Shown here: positions 1-8,212 of the stretch, piece after piece
Numbering within the stretch: the first letter of the stretch is position 1
Layout: every line of letters begins with the position of its first letter
Virus record (IMG/VR): IMGVR_UViG_3300035701_000137
Location: 1-35,869 of that record
Source of the DNA: a virus
DNA: 35,869 nucleotides
Direction: 5' to 3' (one strand)
Program-made: the position numbers and the translations under genes
The notes under the pieces: model-generated
Database searches by the model: none
What the model was told of the DNA's origin: nothing
The model's input: only the letters and a program-made list of their open reading frames with translations

Positions 1-222
1 GACGTCGGCTTCCGTGGTCACTGGACGCTGGAGCTGCATGTTGTGAAGCCGCTGCGCATCTACGCGGGCATGGCGGTCGGACAGCTCTTGTGGTTCACGG
101 CGAGTGGGCCACCAGAGGTGCCATACGATCTCAAGCCATCCGCGAAGTACGGTGGGCGTGACCTGCTTCCGCAGGCGAGCAAGATGCACCAGGAGCACGC
201 GCGTGCGCCGAGCGAGGATTGA
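1..222 (+). CDS. dcd: dCTP deaminase, C-terminal part (cut by window edge)
   Basis: The first 73 codons read as the C-terminus of a dCTP deaminase/dUTPase-fold protein, which deaminates dCTP to dUTP in pyrimidine nucleotide metabolism. Visible family features are the WTLEL strand after DVGFRGH, the PLRIYAGMAVGQLLWF block, the GPPEVPYD turn and the terminal SAKYGG...PQAS segment; in E. coli Dcd the corresponding end is GPAVRPY...DAKY...ASR. The N-terminus and the catalytic Glu region lie upstream of the window. Phages often carry this gene to adjust the dNTP pool during replication. It ends just before a GTG-started small gene. The family call is firm; mono- versus bifunctionality cannot be decided from the fragment. 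Confidence 0.85.
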   Translation, partial: DVGFRGHWTLELHVVKPLRIYAGMAVGQLLWFTASGPPEVPYDLKPSAKYGGRDLLPQASKMHQEHARAPSED

Positions 223-479: not shown

Positions 480-659
480 ATGGCTCTCAAAGCTCAAGGA
501 AAGCTCAAAGCTCAAGGAAAGCTCAAAGCTCAAGGAAAGAAGAAGTCCAAGAAGAAGCGAGCCGTGCGGTCCGAGAAGGGCGGCGGCGGTCGCAAGAAGG
601 GAGGCCGCGCGCGTCGCGGCAAGGCCAGCAAGAAGAAAGCCAGCAAGTCGAGCGACTGA
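480..659 (+). CDS. lysine-rich histone-H1-like small protein
   Basis: A 59-residue, extremely basic protein composed almost only of Lys, Arg, Gly, Ala and Ser. The ATG at 480 has a good Shine-Dalgarno (AGGAAGG, about 6 nt upstream). Residues 3-20 are three copies of LKAQGK encoded by an exact 18-bp tandem repeat; the rest is Lys/Gly/Ser tracts (KKKSKKK, GGGGRKKGG, KASKKKASK). The composition resembles bacterial H1-like or AlgP-type DNA-binding tails and suggests non-specific nucleic-acid binding, perhaps DNA condensation. It lies between a ribbon-helix-helix gene and the PP-loop gene. The reading frame of 458-1399 runs across it, so the two genes cannot both use their longest starts. No specific function can be given. 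Confidence 0.6.
   Translation: MALKAQGKLKAQGKLKAQGKKKSKKKRAVRSEKGGGGRKKGGRARRGKASKKKASKSSD
486..539 (+). repeat. 18-bp direct repeat, three exact tandem copies
   Basis: The unit ctcaaagctcaaggaaag occurs three times back to back with no mismatches, encoding LKAQGK x3 in the gene at 480. Perfect identity between copies implies recent expansion or ongoing slippage, so copy number may differ between related phages. Confidence 0.95.
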
Positions 660-676
660 CACCGCTCGCTGACGCG

Positions 677-1399
677 GTGAGGCTGCTGCGAGAGGTCCAC
701 ACCGGATCCGACAAGGTCCTGGTGGGCCTCAGCGGAGGCAAGGACTCGCTCGTTACCCTCGACCTGTCAGTGCGCGAGTTCGGCGCACCTAACGTGCATG
801 CCTTCTTCATGTACCTCGTGAAGGGTCTGCGGTGCGTCGAGGCGACGCTCCGCTGGTGCGAGCGTCACTACAAGATCGAGGTCGACTACTTCCCGCACTG
901 GCGGCTCGGTCTCGCGTACAAGTACGCCGTCTACATGCCGCATCGCCACGGCACGGACGGGTGGCGGGATATGCGGCAGGTCGACGTCGAGCAGGCCGCG
1001 CGCACCAAGACCGGAGTGGAGTGGCTCGCGTATGGTCACCGCATGACCGACTCGATCGAGCGCGTCGGCATGCTGTCCAAGAACGAGGGTTTCGACACCG
1101 TCGGCCGGCGCGTTTACCCGCTGTGGCGATGGAACGAGGCATCGGTGATGTCGTACCTGCGTCAGCGCAAGATTCCTCCACCACCGAAGCTGACGATCTT
1201 GCGGCGCTCGATGACCGGCGTGAACTTCCAGGAGGACACGCTGCTCGCCATTCGCGAACGGTTCCCTGATGACTACGCTAAGATCGTCGAGAAGTTCCCG
1301 TACCTCCCTGCCAAGCTCGCGCGGTTCGAGCTGAAGAAGGGCTCCTGGAAGCAGGAGACATACATCGACAAGTGGAAGACGAGGTTGGACGAGCGATGA
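677..1399 (+). CDS. PP-loop ATP pyrophosphatase, PAPS-reductase-like (IbrA/DndC-like superfamily)
   Basis: A 240-residue protein if started at GTG 677. It has the PP-loop SGGKDS at residues 19-24 after a KVLVGL strand, which binds ATP and activates a substrate by adenylation. Later features include YGHRMTDSIERVG, matching the G-R-x-x-[ED]-S-x-x-R pattern of PAPS-reductase-like proteins, and RVYPLWRWNEASVMSYL. The only cysteines are C53 and C61; the ECGLH-type motif of true PAPS reductases is absent, so sulfate assimilation is unlikely. Its stop overlaps the start of the ParB-like gene (ATGA at 1396), implying coupled translation. Such pairs resemble IbrA/IbrB and the sulfur-handling proteins of DNA phosphorothioation. 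The start is uncertain: no clear Shine-Dalgarno precedes 677, and 458 is the longest option, but it would run through the lysine-rich gene. Confidence 0.8.
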   Translation: MRLLREVHTGSDKVLVGLSGGKDSLVTLDLSVREFGAPNVHAFFMYLVKGLRCVEATLRWCERHYKIEVDYFPHWRLGLAYKYAVYMPHRHGTDGWRDMRQVDVEQAARTKTGVEWLAYGHRMTDSIERVGMLSKNEGFDTVGRRVYPLWRWNEASVMSYLRQRKIPPPPKLTILRRSMTGVNFQEDTLLAIRERFPDDYAKIVEKFPYLPAKLARFELKKGSWKQETYIDKWKTRLDER

Positions 1400-2358
1400 A
1401 GAAGAAGACCAAAGGCGAAGGCAAGCTCACCAGCGTCCAGCGTTTCGTGGTGGAGCGCATCCACCGTCGGCAGATCAAGAACGCGCCGTACAACCCGAGG
1501 CAGATCGACGACCACGCGCGCAAGAAGCTGAAGGAGAACCTCAAGGCCGTCGGTCTCCTCGATCCTCTCGTGTGGAACAAGTCGACGAGCAACCTCGTGT
1601 CAGGTCATCAGCGGCTGTCCATCATCGACGCTCTCGAAGGTACCGACGACTACACGATGGATGTCGCCGTGGTCGAGCTGACCGGTAAGGTGGAGAAGGA
1701 ACAGAACGTCTTCTTCAACAACCCGAGCGCGCAGGGCACGTACGACGTCGATGGGCTCGGGAAGATGCTCACGGAGGACAAGGTCGACTACAAGAAGGCC
1801 GGCTTCGATGACATGGACCTTCAGCTGATCTTCGAGGACACGGACTACGTGGTGTCGATGTTCGACACCGACGACGCTCCGAAGTCAGTGAAGGACGACC
1901 TGGAGCAGCTCAAAGAGATCCAACGCATGAAGCGTGAGCGCAAGGAGCACCGCGAGCGCGACCAGGAGGCGAACGATCCTGAGTTCTACGCGGTGGTCGT
2001 GTTCCCCGACCGAGCCGCGCAGGGGCAGTTCATGGAACGCGTCGGCATGAACCGGAACGATCGCTACGTCGACGGCGTCAGACTCCACACTTCACTGGAG
2101 GCGACGAAGCCGCAGACCAAGACGAAGGGCGGCGAGCAGTTCGAGGCGCTCACGTTCTGGATCGCTCCGGATCAGAAGAAGGTGATCGAGGACGAGCTGG
2201 TCCGCATCAGCTCGCTGCTCAAAGGCAAGAACCTCCGCGGTCGTGCTCTCGAAGCGATGGCTGCGATCTCGTCGCAGACGGACATCGACAACATCACGGG
2301 CGAGGAGCCCGAAGAGGAGAAGCCGGCGTTCAAGCGCAAGAAGGGTAAGGTGTCCTGA
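1396..2358 (+). CDS. ParB/sulfiredoxin-fold protein (IbrB-like)
   Basis: A 320-residue protein whose first ~130 residues form a ParB N-terminal-like domain: NPRQID, then KKLKENLKAVGLLDPLVWN, then VSGHQRLSIIDAL. The GHQRL box is the ParB/Srx nucleotide-binding signature (GHRR/GERR in ParB). The middle is charged (KEIQRMKRERKEHRERDQE) and the C-terminus basic (FKRKKGKVS). There is no helix-turn-helix partition domain, so a plasmid-partition role is unlikely. The ATG at 1396 overlaps the upstream PP-loop stop, and its own stop overlaps the next gene (TGATG at 2356-2360), so the three genes form one translational unit. Pairing with a PAPS-reductase-like protein recalls IbrB and DndB-type proteins, which suggests a nucleic-acid modification or regulatory role; this is inference. 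Confidence 0.8.
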   Translation: MKKKTKGEGKLTSVQRFVVERIHRRQIKNAPYNPRQIDDHARKKLKENLKAVGLLDPLVWNKSTSNLVSGHQRLSIIDALEGTDDYTMDVAVVELTGKVEKEQNVFFNNPSAQGTYDVDGLGKMLTEDKVDYKKAGFDDMDLQLIFEDTDYVVSMFDTDDAPKSVKDDLEQLKEIQRMKRERKEHRERDQEANDPEFYAVVVFPDRAAQGQFMERVGMNRNDRYVDGVRLHTSLEATKPQTKTKGGEQFEALTFWIAPDQKKVIEDELVRISSLLKGKNLRGRALEAMAAISSQTDIDNITGEEPEEEKPAFKRKKGKVS

Positions 2359-2684
2359 TGCCAGAGGACCCAGAAGAACACGTCGCGCTGATGTTTCACG
2401 GTCTCGTCTCCGACCTGCAGACCAACGACGTGGCGCGGTTCGAGGAGGAGCAGAGGAAGGAGCGCGAGGCGCGCGCCGCACTTCGCCACCAGGATCCTTA
2501 CCAGGGCTTGAGCGCGAGCGAGCTGCTCAAGAAGATCGATGGTGATCCTGCGGAGGCATTGCGCAAGGTCCACGACGATCTCGCGAGGATCAACAAGGAG
2601 GCGCAGGCTGCCGTCGCCGAGAAGGACAAGCAGCACGAGGTCCTCCCCGAAGGTCACTTCCCACCACCACCAACGAGCGAGTAA
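2358..2684 (+). CDS. hypothetical acidic, helical protein
   Basis: A 108-residue protein starting at an ATG that overlaps the ParB-like stop (TGATG). It is highly charged and predicted helical: FEEEQRKEREARAAL, then YQGLSASELLKKIDGD and a KVHDDLARINKEAQAA heptad-like stretch, ending in a Pro-rich tail. No cysteines, signal peptide or membrane segment are visible. The tight overlap suggests it is made with the ParB-like protein and may act with it. I do not recognise the family. Confidence 0.75.
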   Translation: MPEDPEEHVALMFHGLVSDLQTNDVARFEEEQRKEREARAALRHQDPYQGLSASELLKKIDGDPAEALRKVHDDLARINKEAQAAVAEKDKQHEVLPEGHFPPPPTSE

Positions 2685-2687: not shown

Positions 2688-2693
2688 GTGGTC

Positions 2694-2864
2694 ATGGCGA
2701 ACGCGAACAGGCCGCAGGATTACGTGTGCAACCTCTGCGGGTTCCGGTGGGTCGGCGCGAAGACGTCGTGTCCCAACTGTCAGGGCATCGCGAAGTCAGA
2801 AGGTGAGATGACGAAGAAGACCCTCCAGGGCGAAGAGAACGACCTGAAGAAGGGTCTGCGCTGA
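2694..2864 (+). CDS. small zinc-ribbon protein
   Basis: A 56-residue protein. Four cysteines in two CxxC knuckles (C12/C15 and C26/C29, with WVGAKTS between them) form a rubredoxin-like zinc ribbon; the remainder is a charged tail. An in-frame GTG at 2688 is an alternative start, but ATG 2694 sits 6 nt after a TAAGCT hexamer. It ends 2 nt before the next gene. Such small zinc ribbons in phages are usually nucleic-acid or protein-interaction modules; no specific role can be assigned. Confidence 0.7.
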   Translation: MANANRPQDYVCNLCGFRWVGAKTSCPNCQGIAKSEGEMTKKTLQGEENDLKKGLR

Positions 2865-4816: not shown

Positions 4817-6592
4817 GTGGCCGTCTCGGAACAGGTACCGCTGCAGGCAACACTCCCTGCAGACATCCAGAAGGCGATCACGGCCGCCTTCGAGGACCTG
4901 CGCGAGAAGGCATGGTCGAACGAGGAGAAGCTCGCGAAGGCGGAGAGCAGCGGCGAGGCACAGCCGAAGGCATGGTTCGCCGACCCGTTCGCGCTGATGG
5001 ACTCGGTCGGCATGGGCTACCGCAACGCGCCGACGTACCTCACGTACGACACGCTCCGGCAGGTCTCCGAGCGCGACACCTTCGTCGCTCCGATTATCCT
5101 GACCCGCATCGACCAGGTAGCGGCGTTCGCGCGCCCGCAGCCGAACAAGTACAGTGTCGGATTCAAGATCCAGCCGCGCCACGGCGACAAGAAGCGTCTG
5201 CTCACCAAGAGCGAGGTCGAGCGCTGCGACGAGATCAGGATGATCGTGCTCAACACCGGGCGCGAGTACAACCTCGGCCGCGACGGGTTCCGGCAGTTCA
5301 TCGCGAAGTTCGTCCGCGACTCGCTGACCTACGACCAGGCGTGCTTCGAGAGCGTCCGCACACGCGGCGGCAGCGTGTACTCGTTCAACGCGGTGCCGAG
5401 CGACACGATCCGCACGGCCACCCCGAAGCAGATGAAGGGCACGCCACCTCGCGTCAGCGAGATCAAGCGGGACGTCCGCTACGTCCAGGTCATCAACTCG
5501 TCGATCACCGCCGAGTTCACCATCGACGAGATGGCGTTCTGCGTCCGCAACCCGCGCACGCACGTCAAGACGTACGGCTATGGGCTGCCGGAGATCGAGA
5601 CGCTCATCACGACGATTACGAGCCACCTCTGGGCGGAGGAGTGGAACCGCCGGATGTTCTCGCAGGGCTCGACCATCAAGGGCCTGCTCAACATCAAGGG
5701 CAACATCCCGCCGGTGCAGTTCGAGGCATTCAAGCGCCAGTGGCACTCGCAGGTCGCGGGCGTCCAGAACGCGTGGAAGACGCCGATGCTCAACTCGGAG
5801 GAGGTGTCGTGGACACCTCTGCAGATGAACAACACCGAGATGGGCTATCAGATGTGGATGGAGTACCTCTGCAAGGTCACGTGCGCGCTGTTCCGCATCG
5901 ACCCAGCCGAGATCAACTTCGACCTCCGCGGCGGCACGGGCCAGCAGCCGGTGTTCATGTCGACGAACGAGGCGCAGCAGAAGGCGTCGAAGGATCGCGG
6001 GCTCCAGCCTCTGATGCACTTCGTCGAGGATGCGATCAACCGCCACGTCGTGTGGAAGATCGACCCGCGCTTCGAGCTGGCGTTCGTCGGTCTCGACGCC
6101 AAGACCGAGGAGCAGGCGCAGGCGCTGCGCATGCAACAGGTCCAGAACACGCACAAGCTCAACGAGGTGCGTGCGATGGACGACCTACCTCCGGTCGAGG
6201 ATGGCGACGTCGTGCTGAACGCGACATACATCGGCTACAAGATGCAGAAGATGCAGATGGTGCAGCAGGCGCAGATGATGGCCCAGCAGGCTCAGGCGCC
6301 GCAGCCAGGTGCAGCCGGTCAGGCTGCACCGCCACCACCACGCTTCGCGCAGCCTGCCGGCGAGGCTGAGCAGCACGGCGCCGACCAGCTCCGTCAGTTC
6401 GCCGAGCACAAGCCTGGTGGTGACGACGAATCGAGCAGCGACGGGTCTGGTGTCGAAGACGAGTCGAGCGGGCCATCACCGCAGGTCCTGTCGCGTCTGC
6501 ACATGGATGACTGGGACTCCGTCGTCAGCCACTCGCTGCGAAGTGATGACCTCGCGAAGGGCGAGGTGTACGACACCTTCGATCTCGACTAG
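4817..6592 (+). CDS. portal protein
   Basis: A 591-residue portal, the dodecameric ring at one capsid vertex through which DNA is packaged and ejected. Supporting segments are the N-terminal wing with YRNAPTYLTYDTLRQVSERD, the stem/clip region with YGYGLPEIETLITTI and WAEEWNRRMFSQGS, and the C-terminal RGGTGQQP...NEAQQKASKDRGLQPLM block typical of phage portals. The tail after residue ~480 is Gln/Pro-rich and then acidic/Ser-rich (DDESSSDGSG...EDESSG). The GTG at 4817 follows the upstream stop by 3 nt and has no strong Shine-Dalgarno. It opens the head module, and its stop coincides with a TAGGCT promoter candidate. Confidence 0.9.
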   Translation: MAVSEQVPLQATLPADIQKAITAAFEDLREKAWSNEEKLAKAESSGEAQPKAWFADPFALMDSVGMGYRNAPTYLTYDTLRQVSERDTFVAPIILTRIDQVAAFARPQPNKYSVGFKIQPRHGDKKRLLTKSEVERCDEIRMIVLNTGREYNLGRDGFRQFIAKFVRDSLTYDQACFESVRTRGGSVYSFNAVPSDTIRTATPKQMKGTPPRVSEIKRDVRYVQVINSSITAEFTIDEMAFCVRNPRTHVKTYGYGLPEIETLITTITSHLWAEEWNRRMFSQGSTIKGLLNIKGNIPPVQFEAFKRQWHSQVAGVQNAWKTPMLNSEEVSWTPLQMNNTEMGYQMWMEYLCKVTCALFRIDPAEINFDLRGGTGQQPVFMSTNEAQQKASKDRGLQPLMHFVEDAINRHVVWKIDPRFELAFVGLDAKTEEQAQALRMQQVQNTHKLNEVRAMDDLPPVEDGDVVLNATYIGYKMQKMQMVQQAQMMAQQAQAPQPGAAGQAAPPPPRFAQPAGEAEQHGADQLRQFAEHKPGGDDESSSDGSGVEDESSGPSPQVLSRLHMDDWDSVVSHSLRSDDLAKGEVYDTFDLD

Positions 6593-6601: not shown

Positions 6602-8212
6602 GTGACAAGCACGCCCTACCAGTTCATCAAGCGGGGTAGCTTGTTCATCATCCCGGTCGGTCCGTCGATCGCCGAGGTGCCATACCCGACGCAGCCGTAC
6701 ACGAAGTACCCCGACTACTCGCTCTGGGTGCACGGCAAGATCACGGAGCCCGCGCTCCACCTCGACAACGCGCGGATGCCGGGCCTGTACCAGGAGGTCC
6801 GCGACGACCTCGTGCGCTACTCGCCGGTCGAGGTCACGCGCTCAGCCTTCCAGCGGTCTCAGCATGCATACGTCGGCGTGATCGATTCGCGCGGTACGCC
6901 GTACTACTTCGCGCTCGACTCACGTGGCCTGTCGGTCCGCGAGGTCGACCGCAACGACGACCGCGTGTGGAAGACGTTCGATCGGCTCGCCGTGGAGGAA
7001 CACATGGTGGCGGTTCGCAAGCGACGGACGGATTCTGCCGCGGAGATGGTCCAGGTCGACCACGAGCTGCGCGAGCCGATCCTCGTCGTCAGCAAGGCTC
7101 TCCGTTCTCAGAAGGCTGTGCAGCACCGGAAGGAGCACAAGCCTCCGAAGCCGTCACCGAAGACCGGCGTGCCGACCACTCGCCTCCACACGATCAACCG
7201 CGATGCTCAAGGGAAGACGCGGCCTTCGCGAGCGTTCCATCTTCCGTCGTCGAAGCCGGACAAGAAGCCGAAGGAGCCGAAGCCGACGAGCGAGCAGAAG
7301 GAGCATGCTCACCTGGCTCGGTACGAGGCGCGCTTGCGCGGGAAGCAGGCCATCAAGGACAAACTGCGCGCGGAGCGCCAGCAGCTGAAGCCCGCGAAGC
7401 AGCAGAAGCCGAAGGCATCGGACGAGCGTCTGAACGCGTGGCGAGCGAAGCATCCCGGAGGTAACGTCGAAGCGATGCAGGCGCACCCGTTCGCGAAGTC
7501 CAACCCTCGTCTCGTCATCAGGGTCGGCGACTACGCTGCGGAGATGCGGCGCGTCGGAGCGCTTCACGCTGCGGAGTGTGGTGAGGAGGACCTCGACCCA
7601 CCACGCCCGGAGGACTTCGAGGTCGAGAAGGCCACGCTTCCGAATGGAAGGGCGAAGGGGCACAAGCTGTCCGATCTCGACCAGGAGCAGCTACGCATCG
7701 GCGCTCGTCACGAACGTGAGCACACGACCGACAAGGACATCGCACGCAGGATCGCGGCTGATCATCTCGTCGAGGACCAGGATTACTACAAGAAGCTGAG
7801 GTGCGTGGAGAAGGCGCTGCCGAAGAAGGCCAAGGAAGAGAAGCCGAAGAAGACGCCGAACAGCAAGGCCACGAAGAAGCAGGCCGGCGCTGGCGGCAAG
7901 ACGCGCTACACGTACCCAGGTGAGAAGAAGGGCGGAGCGAAGAAGCCAGGCGCGAAGACGACCGGCAAGCCCGCTCCGCTCATCGTGGAGCACGACGACA
8001 CGAAGAACGCGAACCCCGACGAGCTTGCGAACCAGCTCGGCGTGTCCGTCCGCACGCTGCAGCGCACCGCGAAGCGTCTCGGTCGCGACGGCTTCACGAA
8101 GTTCATGCGGCCGCACCTGAAGAGGTTCGCCGCGAAGCATCGCCTCGACCCCGACTACTGGGGGACCCTGTACGAGAAGCTGCGTGCATCTGACGTCAAG
8201 GTTCCAGCATAG
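6602..8212 (+). CDS. lysine-rich head-module protein with EHT/DHL.E/YY motif and C-terminal HTH-like segment
   Basis: A 536-residue protein. The first ~130 residues are globular (FIIPVGPSIAEVPY, then AYVGVIDSRGTPYYFAL). Residues ~170-310 are a Lys/Pro-rich linker. Near residues 360-410 is ERE-HTTDKDIARRIAADHL-VEDQDYY, a signature I associate with DUF5661 (unverified). Residues ~435-470 are Lys/Gly-rich (YTYPGEKKGGAKKPG). The C-terminus (NPDELANQLGVSVRTLQRTA) looks like a helix-turn-helix. It sits between portal and MuF, so it is probably a virion or capsid-internal DNA-binding protein, but no function is recognised. GTG 6602 has no Shine-Dalgarno and follows a TAGGCT by 6 nt. Confidence 0.65.
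   Translation: MTSTPYQFIKRGSLFIIPVGPSIAEVPYPTQPYTKYPDYSLWVHGKITEPALHLDNARMPGLYQEVRDDLVRYSPVEVTRSAFQRSQHAYVGVIDSRGTPYYFALDSRGLSVREVDRNDDRVWKTFDRLAVEEHMVAVRKRRTDSAAEMVQVDHELREPILVVSKALRSQKAVQHRKEHKPPKPSPKTGVPTTRLHTINRDAQGKTRPSRAFHLPSSKPDKKPKEPKPTSEQKEHAHLARYEARLRGKQAIKDKLRAERQQLKPAKQQKPKASDERLNAWRAKHPGGNVEAMQAHPFAKSNPRLVIRVGDYAAEMRRVGALHAAECGEEDLDPPRPEDFEVEKATLPNGRAKGHKLSDLDQEQLRIGARHEREHTTDKDIARRIAADHLVEDQDYYKKLRCVEKALPKKAKEEKPKKTPNSKATKKQAGAGGKTRYTYPGEKKGGAKKPGAKTTGKPAPLIVEHDDTKNANPDELANQLGVSVRTLQRTAKRLGRDGFTKFMRPHLKRFAAKHRLDPDYWGTLYEKLRASDVKVPA

Follow-up and report, generated by a model that had tools for sequence, protein, structure and literature searches.

What does a phage do with a protein of the sulfate-reductase fold when its gene overlaps that of a ParB-like protein? 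The question is raised by the left end of a complete IMG/VR virus record of 35,869 bases, referred to here as the window. The record belongs to a contractile-tailed phage, in which a portal, head protease, major head protein, tail sheath and baseplate proteins were recognised among 29 window ORFs scanned with PHROGs. A preliminary description of the locus had read it as an IbrA/IbrB-like cassette for nucleic-acid modification or host control, with three neighbouring ORFs as possible extra components. As a whole, this interpretation is partly supported by the analysis reported here.

The locus and its immediate neighbours

The sequence features named in the preliminary description were confirmed, namely SGGKDS in the first protein, VSGHQRL in the second, and two overlapping junctions: ATGA at 1396-1399, between the enzyme and ParB-like genes, and TGATG at 2356-2360, between the ParB-like gene and a third ORF (Table 1). 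All three ORFs (677-1399, 1396-2358 and 2358-2684) are present again in two related contigs, L002 and L003, where the enzyme and the ParB-like protein are 72-76% identical to those of the window and the third ORF is matched at E values of 7e-42 and 6e-34 (phmmer). Because the peptide RLTPLA[DS]A, encoded 5' of GTG 677, is kept in both relatives, and because in all three loci the lysine-rich ORF ends in a stop that shares bases with a CTG (CTG 656-658 and CTGA 656-659 in the window), translation of the enzyme may start at CTG 656.

Table 1. Coordinates of the cassette and adjacent features in the window
Feature	Position	Strand	Remarks
PP-loop ATP-pyrophosphatase-like protein, PAPS_reduct fold, no conserved Cys	656..1399	+	certain from GTG 677, possibly from CTG 656
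SGGKDS PP-loop, ATP site	731..748	+	residues 19-24 of the 677-1399 product
ParB/Srx-fold protein with C-terminal KYxDG module and lineage-specific C-terminal extension	1396..2358	+	phrog_9353, Foldseek, module HMM
ParB/Srx domain	1447..1845	+	residues about 18-150; VSGHQR is residues 68-73
KYxDG module, here NDPEFYAVVVFPDRAAQGQFMERVGMNRNDRYVDGVRLHTSLE	1975..2103	+	residues about 194-236 of the 1396-2358 product
Third ORF, 108 aa, no known family, lineage-specific	2358..2684	+	
Lysine-rich 59-aa ORF, lineage-specific	480..659	+	TGA overlaps the conserved CTG
Zinc-ribbon protein, CxxC...CxxC, lineage-specific neighbour	2688..2864	+	phrog_29191, 8.5e-5

The third ORF has no Pfam match up to E 0.1, and among PHROGs only phrog_19526 at E 0.073. 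Among the loci searched with phmmer, this ORF and the zinc-ribbon protein are found only in the window, L002 and L003; the lysine-rich ORF gave a match to the window itself only, and similar lysine-rich ORFs were read by eye in L002 and L003. Since all three are confined to this close lineage, they are probably not core components, and the earlier proposal that they belong to the cassette was rejected.

Window positions 1-222 encode the C-terminal part of a dCTP deaminase-like protein (phmmer E 4e-31; PF22769 in the full relative, L002:127-735). A small ORF at 104-451, kept in both relatives between the dCTP deaminase and the cassette (L002 query: window 5.4e-24, L003 2.5e-21), has no family by PHROGs or Pfam. 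In L003, the region upstream of the cassette has a Thy1 (thymidylate synthase complementing) domain at L003:2836-4014 and a weak nucleoside 2-deoxyribosyltransferase match at L003:8503-8913 (E 2.9e-6, just under cut-off). Together with the dCTP deaminase, these suggest that the window lineage has genes of nucleotide metabolism close to the cassette. The protein that follows the portal (6602-8212) has a DUF5661 domain (E 4.4e-12).

The enzyme keeps its ATP site and has no conserved cysteine

The 677-1399 product matches PF01507 at 40.9 bits (E 2.9e-10; curated cut-off 22.5), and also the phage families phrog_424 and phrog_2302. A structural model built from 67 aligned relatives (mean pLDDT 91.3, pTM 0.87) falls among PP-loop enzymes, its nearest folds including three that are tied, namely the FAD synthase PAPS domain (8rom, Z 15.9), CysD (1zun, Z 15.2) and APS reductase (4bwv, Z 15.1); 1zun is also the best PDB profile match (E 2.6e-6). 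In 89 representatives with less than 70% identity, S19 of SGGKDS is conserved at 99% and G21, K22 and D23 at 100%, and G120, D125, P197 and D199 are nearly invariant as well. Pfam gave no DUF3440 match in the window enzyme up to E 0.1, while the DUF3440 model, PF11922, does match in E. coli. PADLOC gave nothing for the enzyme beyond BrxP, at E 0.0037.

Among the same 89 representatives there is no conserved Cys column, the highest reaching 35% Cys. The ECGLH-type cysteine is absent from the window enzyme, an ECGLH-like motif occurs in 1/230 relatives, and CxxC is found in 4/230 sequences. The absence of conserved cysteines is thus a firm property of the family. It speaks against a reductase, a DndC-type sulfur carrier or an Fe-S thiolase; the candidate chemistries that remain are AMP transfer and adenylate-activated ligation. 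FAD synthase and CysD are enzymes of the PP-loop PAPS fold that work independently of cysteine. Fold matches of the modelled enzyme cannot tell AMP transfer from the chemistry of amide-forming or thiolating PP-loop enzymes.

The partner in the window is a ParB/Srx-fold protein with a C-terminal module

The 1396-2358 product matches phrog_9353 at E 1.9e-61. Its model, built from 38 relatives, has pLDDT mostly above 90 over residues 18-150, and is matched by Foldseek to CDP-bound ParB (6sdk, E 8.9e-7), Noc and sulfiredoxin (6ky4, E 7e-3). Both the fold and the GxxR motif of the ParB/Srx group are present, the latter as GHQR at residues 70-73, and N61, G70, H71, D78, Y86 and E100 are invariant in the ParB domain of 41 relatives. 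The proposed coupling of a PP-loop enzyme to a ParB/Srx-fold protein therefore holds: the family matches are clear, both models have the expected folds, and the ATP site of the one and the ParB/Srx pocket of the other, without which the proposal would have failed, are in place.

The ParB domain of the window is close to the N-termini of ParB-methyltransferases (phrog_498, 5.9e-18; PADLOC MTase_II, 5.3e-14). Pfam found no methyltransferase domain in the window protein, and no helix-turn-helix up to E 0.1. No ParA was named among the 29 ORFs scanned with PHROGs, which are part of the window's ORFs. With no helix-turn-helix matched and no ParA named, a canonical ParABS partition protein was rejected.

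In the Gordonia phage Morgana, the Pasteurella phage Pm86 and the Bifidobacterium phage BigBern1, the gene after the enzyme encodes no ParB domain; its product has a C-terminal stretch in common with the window ParB-like protein. This stretch, the KYxDG module, spans about 45 residues and in the window partner is placed after the ParB domain. Its consensus in the ParB-less proteins is tDSEyWxcxCFxtReqKexFLxax..gDKYlDGxxxA. The module is unnamed by PHROGs or Pfam models in the proteins scanned, and the ParB-less proteins that carry it gave no informative family (two scanned with Pfam, three with PHROGs). Judged by eye, the partners of BigBern1 (L008:1521-2153) and Morgana (L010:5672-6370) hold two module copies. 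The constant feature of the partner is therefore the KYxDG module, not the ParB domain. The preliminary description had missed it, as it had the terminase as usual neighbour.

Enzyme and module form a fixed pair

By tblastn, the enzyme was found in 28 and the ParB-like protein in 78 of 50,697 phage records, all below 60% identity; the hosts of these matches include Riemerella, Bacteroides, Lactobacillus, Cutibacterium, Bifidobacterium, Pasteurella and Gordonia. We then considered 230 enzyme loci. They come from three scans of viral sequences and one of genomes, for which sub-alignments served as seeds (28; 80 kept of 118; 80 kept of 209; 31), and include ten annotated phage records, the window and its closest relatives, with the copies L001 and L014 removed before the count. 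The 230 loci are not independent, and 89 representatives remain under 70% identity. A module HMM of 43 positions, made from seven segments, was run against the 23,760 ORFs that the collected loci contain. In 226/230 loci it finds a same-strand module that follows the enzyme by no more than 3 kb; three have no module match (L013, L022, L026) and in one the module is 3.9 kb away. The co-occurrence across phages that had been anticipated is thus borne out for the enzyme and its partner, in distant phages, and fails for the third gene, which is limited to the close lineage.

Module and ParB domain are fused in 111/230 loci, and in 115/230 the ParB HMM finds no ParB domain. The remaining four comprise one locus with a separate nearby ParB ORF and three module-less loci with a ParB ORF near or elsewhere. 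The 89 representatives divide into 40 ParB-fused, 47 without ParB and 2 without module. There is no fusion of enzyme and module among the 230 loci; the gap between enzyme and partner exceeds 150 nt in 46 of 227, and no recurrent enzyme is inserted there among the ORF starts listed.

As the loci counted had also been the source of the module HMM, in an iterative build, we carried out a reverse search, in which two viral-contig scans seeded with the module alone gave 69 and 71 loci. In 92 of the 94 distinct loci so obtained, a PAPSR-like ORF precedes the module by at most 1 kb (94/96 by ORF ends), and this holds for 36 of the 38 that were new to the first set. In the two misses of the reverse search, the module begins 120-300 bases from the contig start. 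The module seeds were drawn from the enzyme-linked set, so that this count may overlook distant module proteins that have no enzyme beside them; the co-occurrence of enzyme and module is nevertheless firm.

To follow the ParB domain, we placed its state on an enzyme tree of 87 of the 89 representatives (two omitted for length; quick search, SH-aLRT support only). The tree, with 40 ParB-fused, 45 ParB-less and 2 unlabelled rows, requires one change, compared with about 28 for shuffled labels, a pattern of shared inheritance; since different seeds were used to gather the ParB-fused and the ParB-less side, the tree may lack intermediates. The 31 bacterial genome loci (L201-L231), found with a ParB-less seed, all have enzyme and module, with 0 ParB fusions, and TerL was detected in 10.

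The pair is therefore a conserved phage unit, and the combination of module and enzyme is unnamed, though made of ordinary parts. An open-access literature search returned no paper joining a PAPS reductase-like protein, a ParB-like nuclease and terminase, and the main text of the ParB-fold survey PMC12704722, in the portion available, has neither the term PAPS nor phosphoadenosine. As far as such searches show, and only as strongly as they do, pairing and module are unpublished.

The cassette usually lies upstream of the terminase

A search of the 230 loci with six terminase seeds found TerL in 147. In 141 of these it follows on the same strand within 5 kb, and in 6 it is close by but on the opposite strand; among the 202 loci with 4.5 kb or more of downstream sequence, 129 have it. 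In 83/230 loci the six seeds did not detect TerL, which does not equal its absence. It was likewise not detected among the 29 window ORFs scanned with PHROGs, and the nearest recognised packaging gene in the window lineage is the portal at 4817, 2.5 kb downstream. Lactobacillus phage LR1, Bacteroides phage BS-TP2 and Riemerella phage PT33 have the order enzyme, ParB-like, terminase. In JNU_P7 and Pm86, the cassette has regulator-type genes (ArpU, antitermination Q) on one side and the terminase or the genome end on the other.

A ParB-methyltransferase occupies this same place in one other lineage. The comparison set consists of 80 close relatives (79-92% identity) of one ParB-N6/N4-MTase, and of the 45/80 loci with at least 3 kb downstream, 30 have TerL within 5 kb downstream and none has it elsewhere. 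Neither the KYxDG module nor the PP-loop enzyme is present in any of the 80.

Comparison with named systems

A similar gene arrangement is found in IbrA/IbrB and YbdN/YbdM, in which a PP-loop gene overlaps a ParB-fold gene; ybdNM of E. coli K-12 has the same order, and IbrA/B are annotated in several phages. The window enzyme, however, has 240 aa and no DUF3440, as opposed to 406 aa in YbdN, and YbdM does not have the KYxDG module. Against our HMMs, ybdNM scores a weak 19.7 and 22.6 bits. The IbrA/IbrB membership favoured earlier was consequently rejected on domain content, the comparison being made through K-12 YbdN/YbdM and not ECOR-9 IbrA/B. IbrA itself bears DUF3440, and it is usually grouped with the DUF3440 type that K-12 ybdNM represents.

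The phrog_498 ParB-DNA methyltransferases have a related ParB domain and, in the lineage tested, a place upstream of the terminase, but carry a methyltransferase domain instead of a separate PP-loop enzyme. CysH, CysD and the FAD synthase PAPS domain share the fold and the PP-loop (Z 14-16); the window family differs from CysH by lacking the ECGLH cysteine, by its fixed module partner and by its phage packaging neighbourhood. DndC, SspD and BrxP have a PP-loop fold of the PAPS-reductase type, and Dnd has a ParB-fold partner, DndB (PMC10853773, available portion), whereas the window family is without conserved cysteines; no Dnd-type gene set was seen in the annotated phage neighbourhoods examined. 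These Dnd and BREX-4 comparisons are drawn from the available parts of PMC10853773 and PMC12839542.

In Bacillus phage 055SW001, gp78-gp79-gp80 (ParB, PAPSR-like, methyltransferase; L367:5022-7389), enzyme and ParB are related to ours at 56 and 86 bits, but ParB comes first, the KYxDG module is absent and the enzyme has 371 aa. NinC of phage lambda is annotated as a phage PAPS reductase. With no enzyme HMM match and no module nearby, it was rejected as a relative, and by this test belongs to a different PP-loop family.

What the pair may do

Our preferred explanation, with a probability of about 0.42, is a phage modification system near the packaging step, ATP-driven and ParB-guided, which would act on phage DNA or a DNA-bound target; its function is predicted from sequences and models. 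The two proteins would be one phage-encoded machine. The PP-loop enzyme would split ATP between the alpha and beta phosphates and pass AMP to an acceptor, either as a lasting mark or as an activation for exchange, in a chemistry without catalytic cysteine. The partner would attach to the enzyme via the KYxDG module, and in the ParB branch an NTP-switched ParB clamp would add DNA loading. The usual target would be either phage DNA or a protein bound to DNA, reached late in infection at about the stage of terminase loading, so that marked phage genomes would be packaged or would evade host nucleases. That the nearest folds include AMP-transferring enzymes without a catalytic cysteine counts for AMP transfer. 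The nearness of the ParB domain to ParB-methyltransferases and the same-slot placement count for phage modification, the latter argument being based on close relatives of a single ParB-methyltransferase. The fixed pairing in both search directions, the single change of ParB state, the nearly invariant ATP-site residues, the usual place before TerL and the nucleotide-metabolism genes of the window lineage also count in favour. On the other side stand the 83 loci in which TerL was not detected and the lack of any enzyme-module fusion among the 230. About half of the family is without ParB, and DNA guidance can therefore not be general.

The two proteins could instead act together on transcription, co-activating or switching late phage or host genes in the manner suggested for IbrA/IbrB; we consider this rather unlikely. 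It would account for the folds and the overlapping gene order shared with ybdNM, and for the ArpU and antitermination Q genes that adjoin the cassette in JNU_P7 and Pm86; the accessible part of PMC4490671 describes IbrA/B as co-activators of prophage gene expression. A pure regulator would leave the invariant ATP-pyrophosphatase site unexplained, however, and the missing helix-turn-helix match, the missing DUF3440 and a YbdM without module tell against it too. Quite unlikely, in our estimate, is a host-conflict effector, in which an NTP-using enzyme and a ParB switch deplete or alter nucleotides, block a rival phage or disarm host defence. ParB/Srx domains have been proposed as NTPases or nucleases in conflict systems (PMC5512222 and PMC10853773, in the parts available), and the lone module proteins imply that DNA clamping is not essential; yet the only PADLOC matches were BrxP (enzyme) and MTase_II (ParB part), and the constant pre-terminase place would fit a lytic function better than a shuffled moron.

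The enzyme might also put AMP or another group on the partner's module or on a packaging protein, not on DNA. A short, highly conserved module, inseparable from the enzyme, would suit such protein modification. The enzyme has a weak profile match to the QueC-like CBASS protein Cap9 (9nto, E 0.007, no domain passing), whose chemistry is protein-conjugating, but this match is marginal and we hold the idea to be decidedly improbable. DNA phosphorothioation of the DndC or SspD type, the thiolation chemistry suggested earlier, would use the same PP-loop fold and a ParB-fold partner, as with DndB. DndC is distinguished by a Cys dyad (PMC10853773, available portion) for which the family has no counterpart column; the reading was rejected on cysteine conservation and is very remote. 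An auxiliary sulfate-assimilation gene, cysH, is what the PF01507 match and common annotation would suggest, and phage cysH is taken so in the available text of PMC9301287. The preliminary description had thought this role unlikely for want of the ECGLH-type cysteine; the near-total lack of that motif and the fixed pairing with a module protein agree, and sulfate assimilation, rejected on cysteine conservation, is scarcely credible here.

A wider form of the preferred phage modification reading is more doubtful than that reading itself. Enzyme and KYxDG protein would be the obligatory halves of a modification system in tailed phages that works without cysteine and has so far gone undescribed. 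It would place an adenylate-derived mark on phage DNA or a packaging-associated protein; the ParB clamp would have been gained or lost once, and a sizeable share of recorded cysH would belong to this system.

Implications

The enzyme family has the fold of sulfate reductase without its chemistry, in addition to a fixed partner, and is usually mislabelled as sulfate reductase. Phage cysH has repeatedly been interpreted as viral steering of host sulfur metabolism (PMC9301287, available text). If DNA or packaging proteins are what is modified, claims on the ecology of sulfur metabolism need revision. The KYxDG module provides a simple marker that separates this enzyme family from true cysH. If our reading is true, it would disclose a widespread phage function that is testable with two genes.
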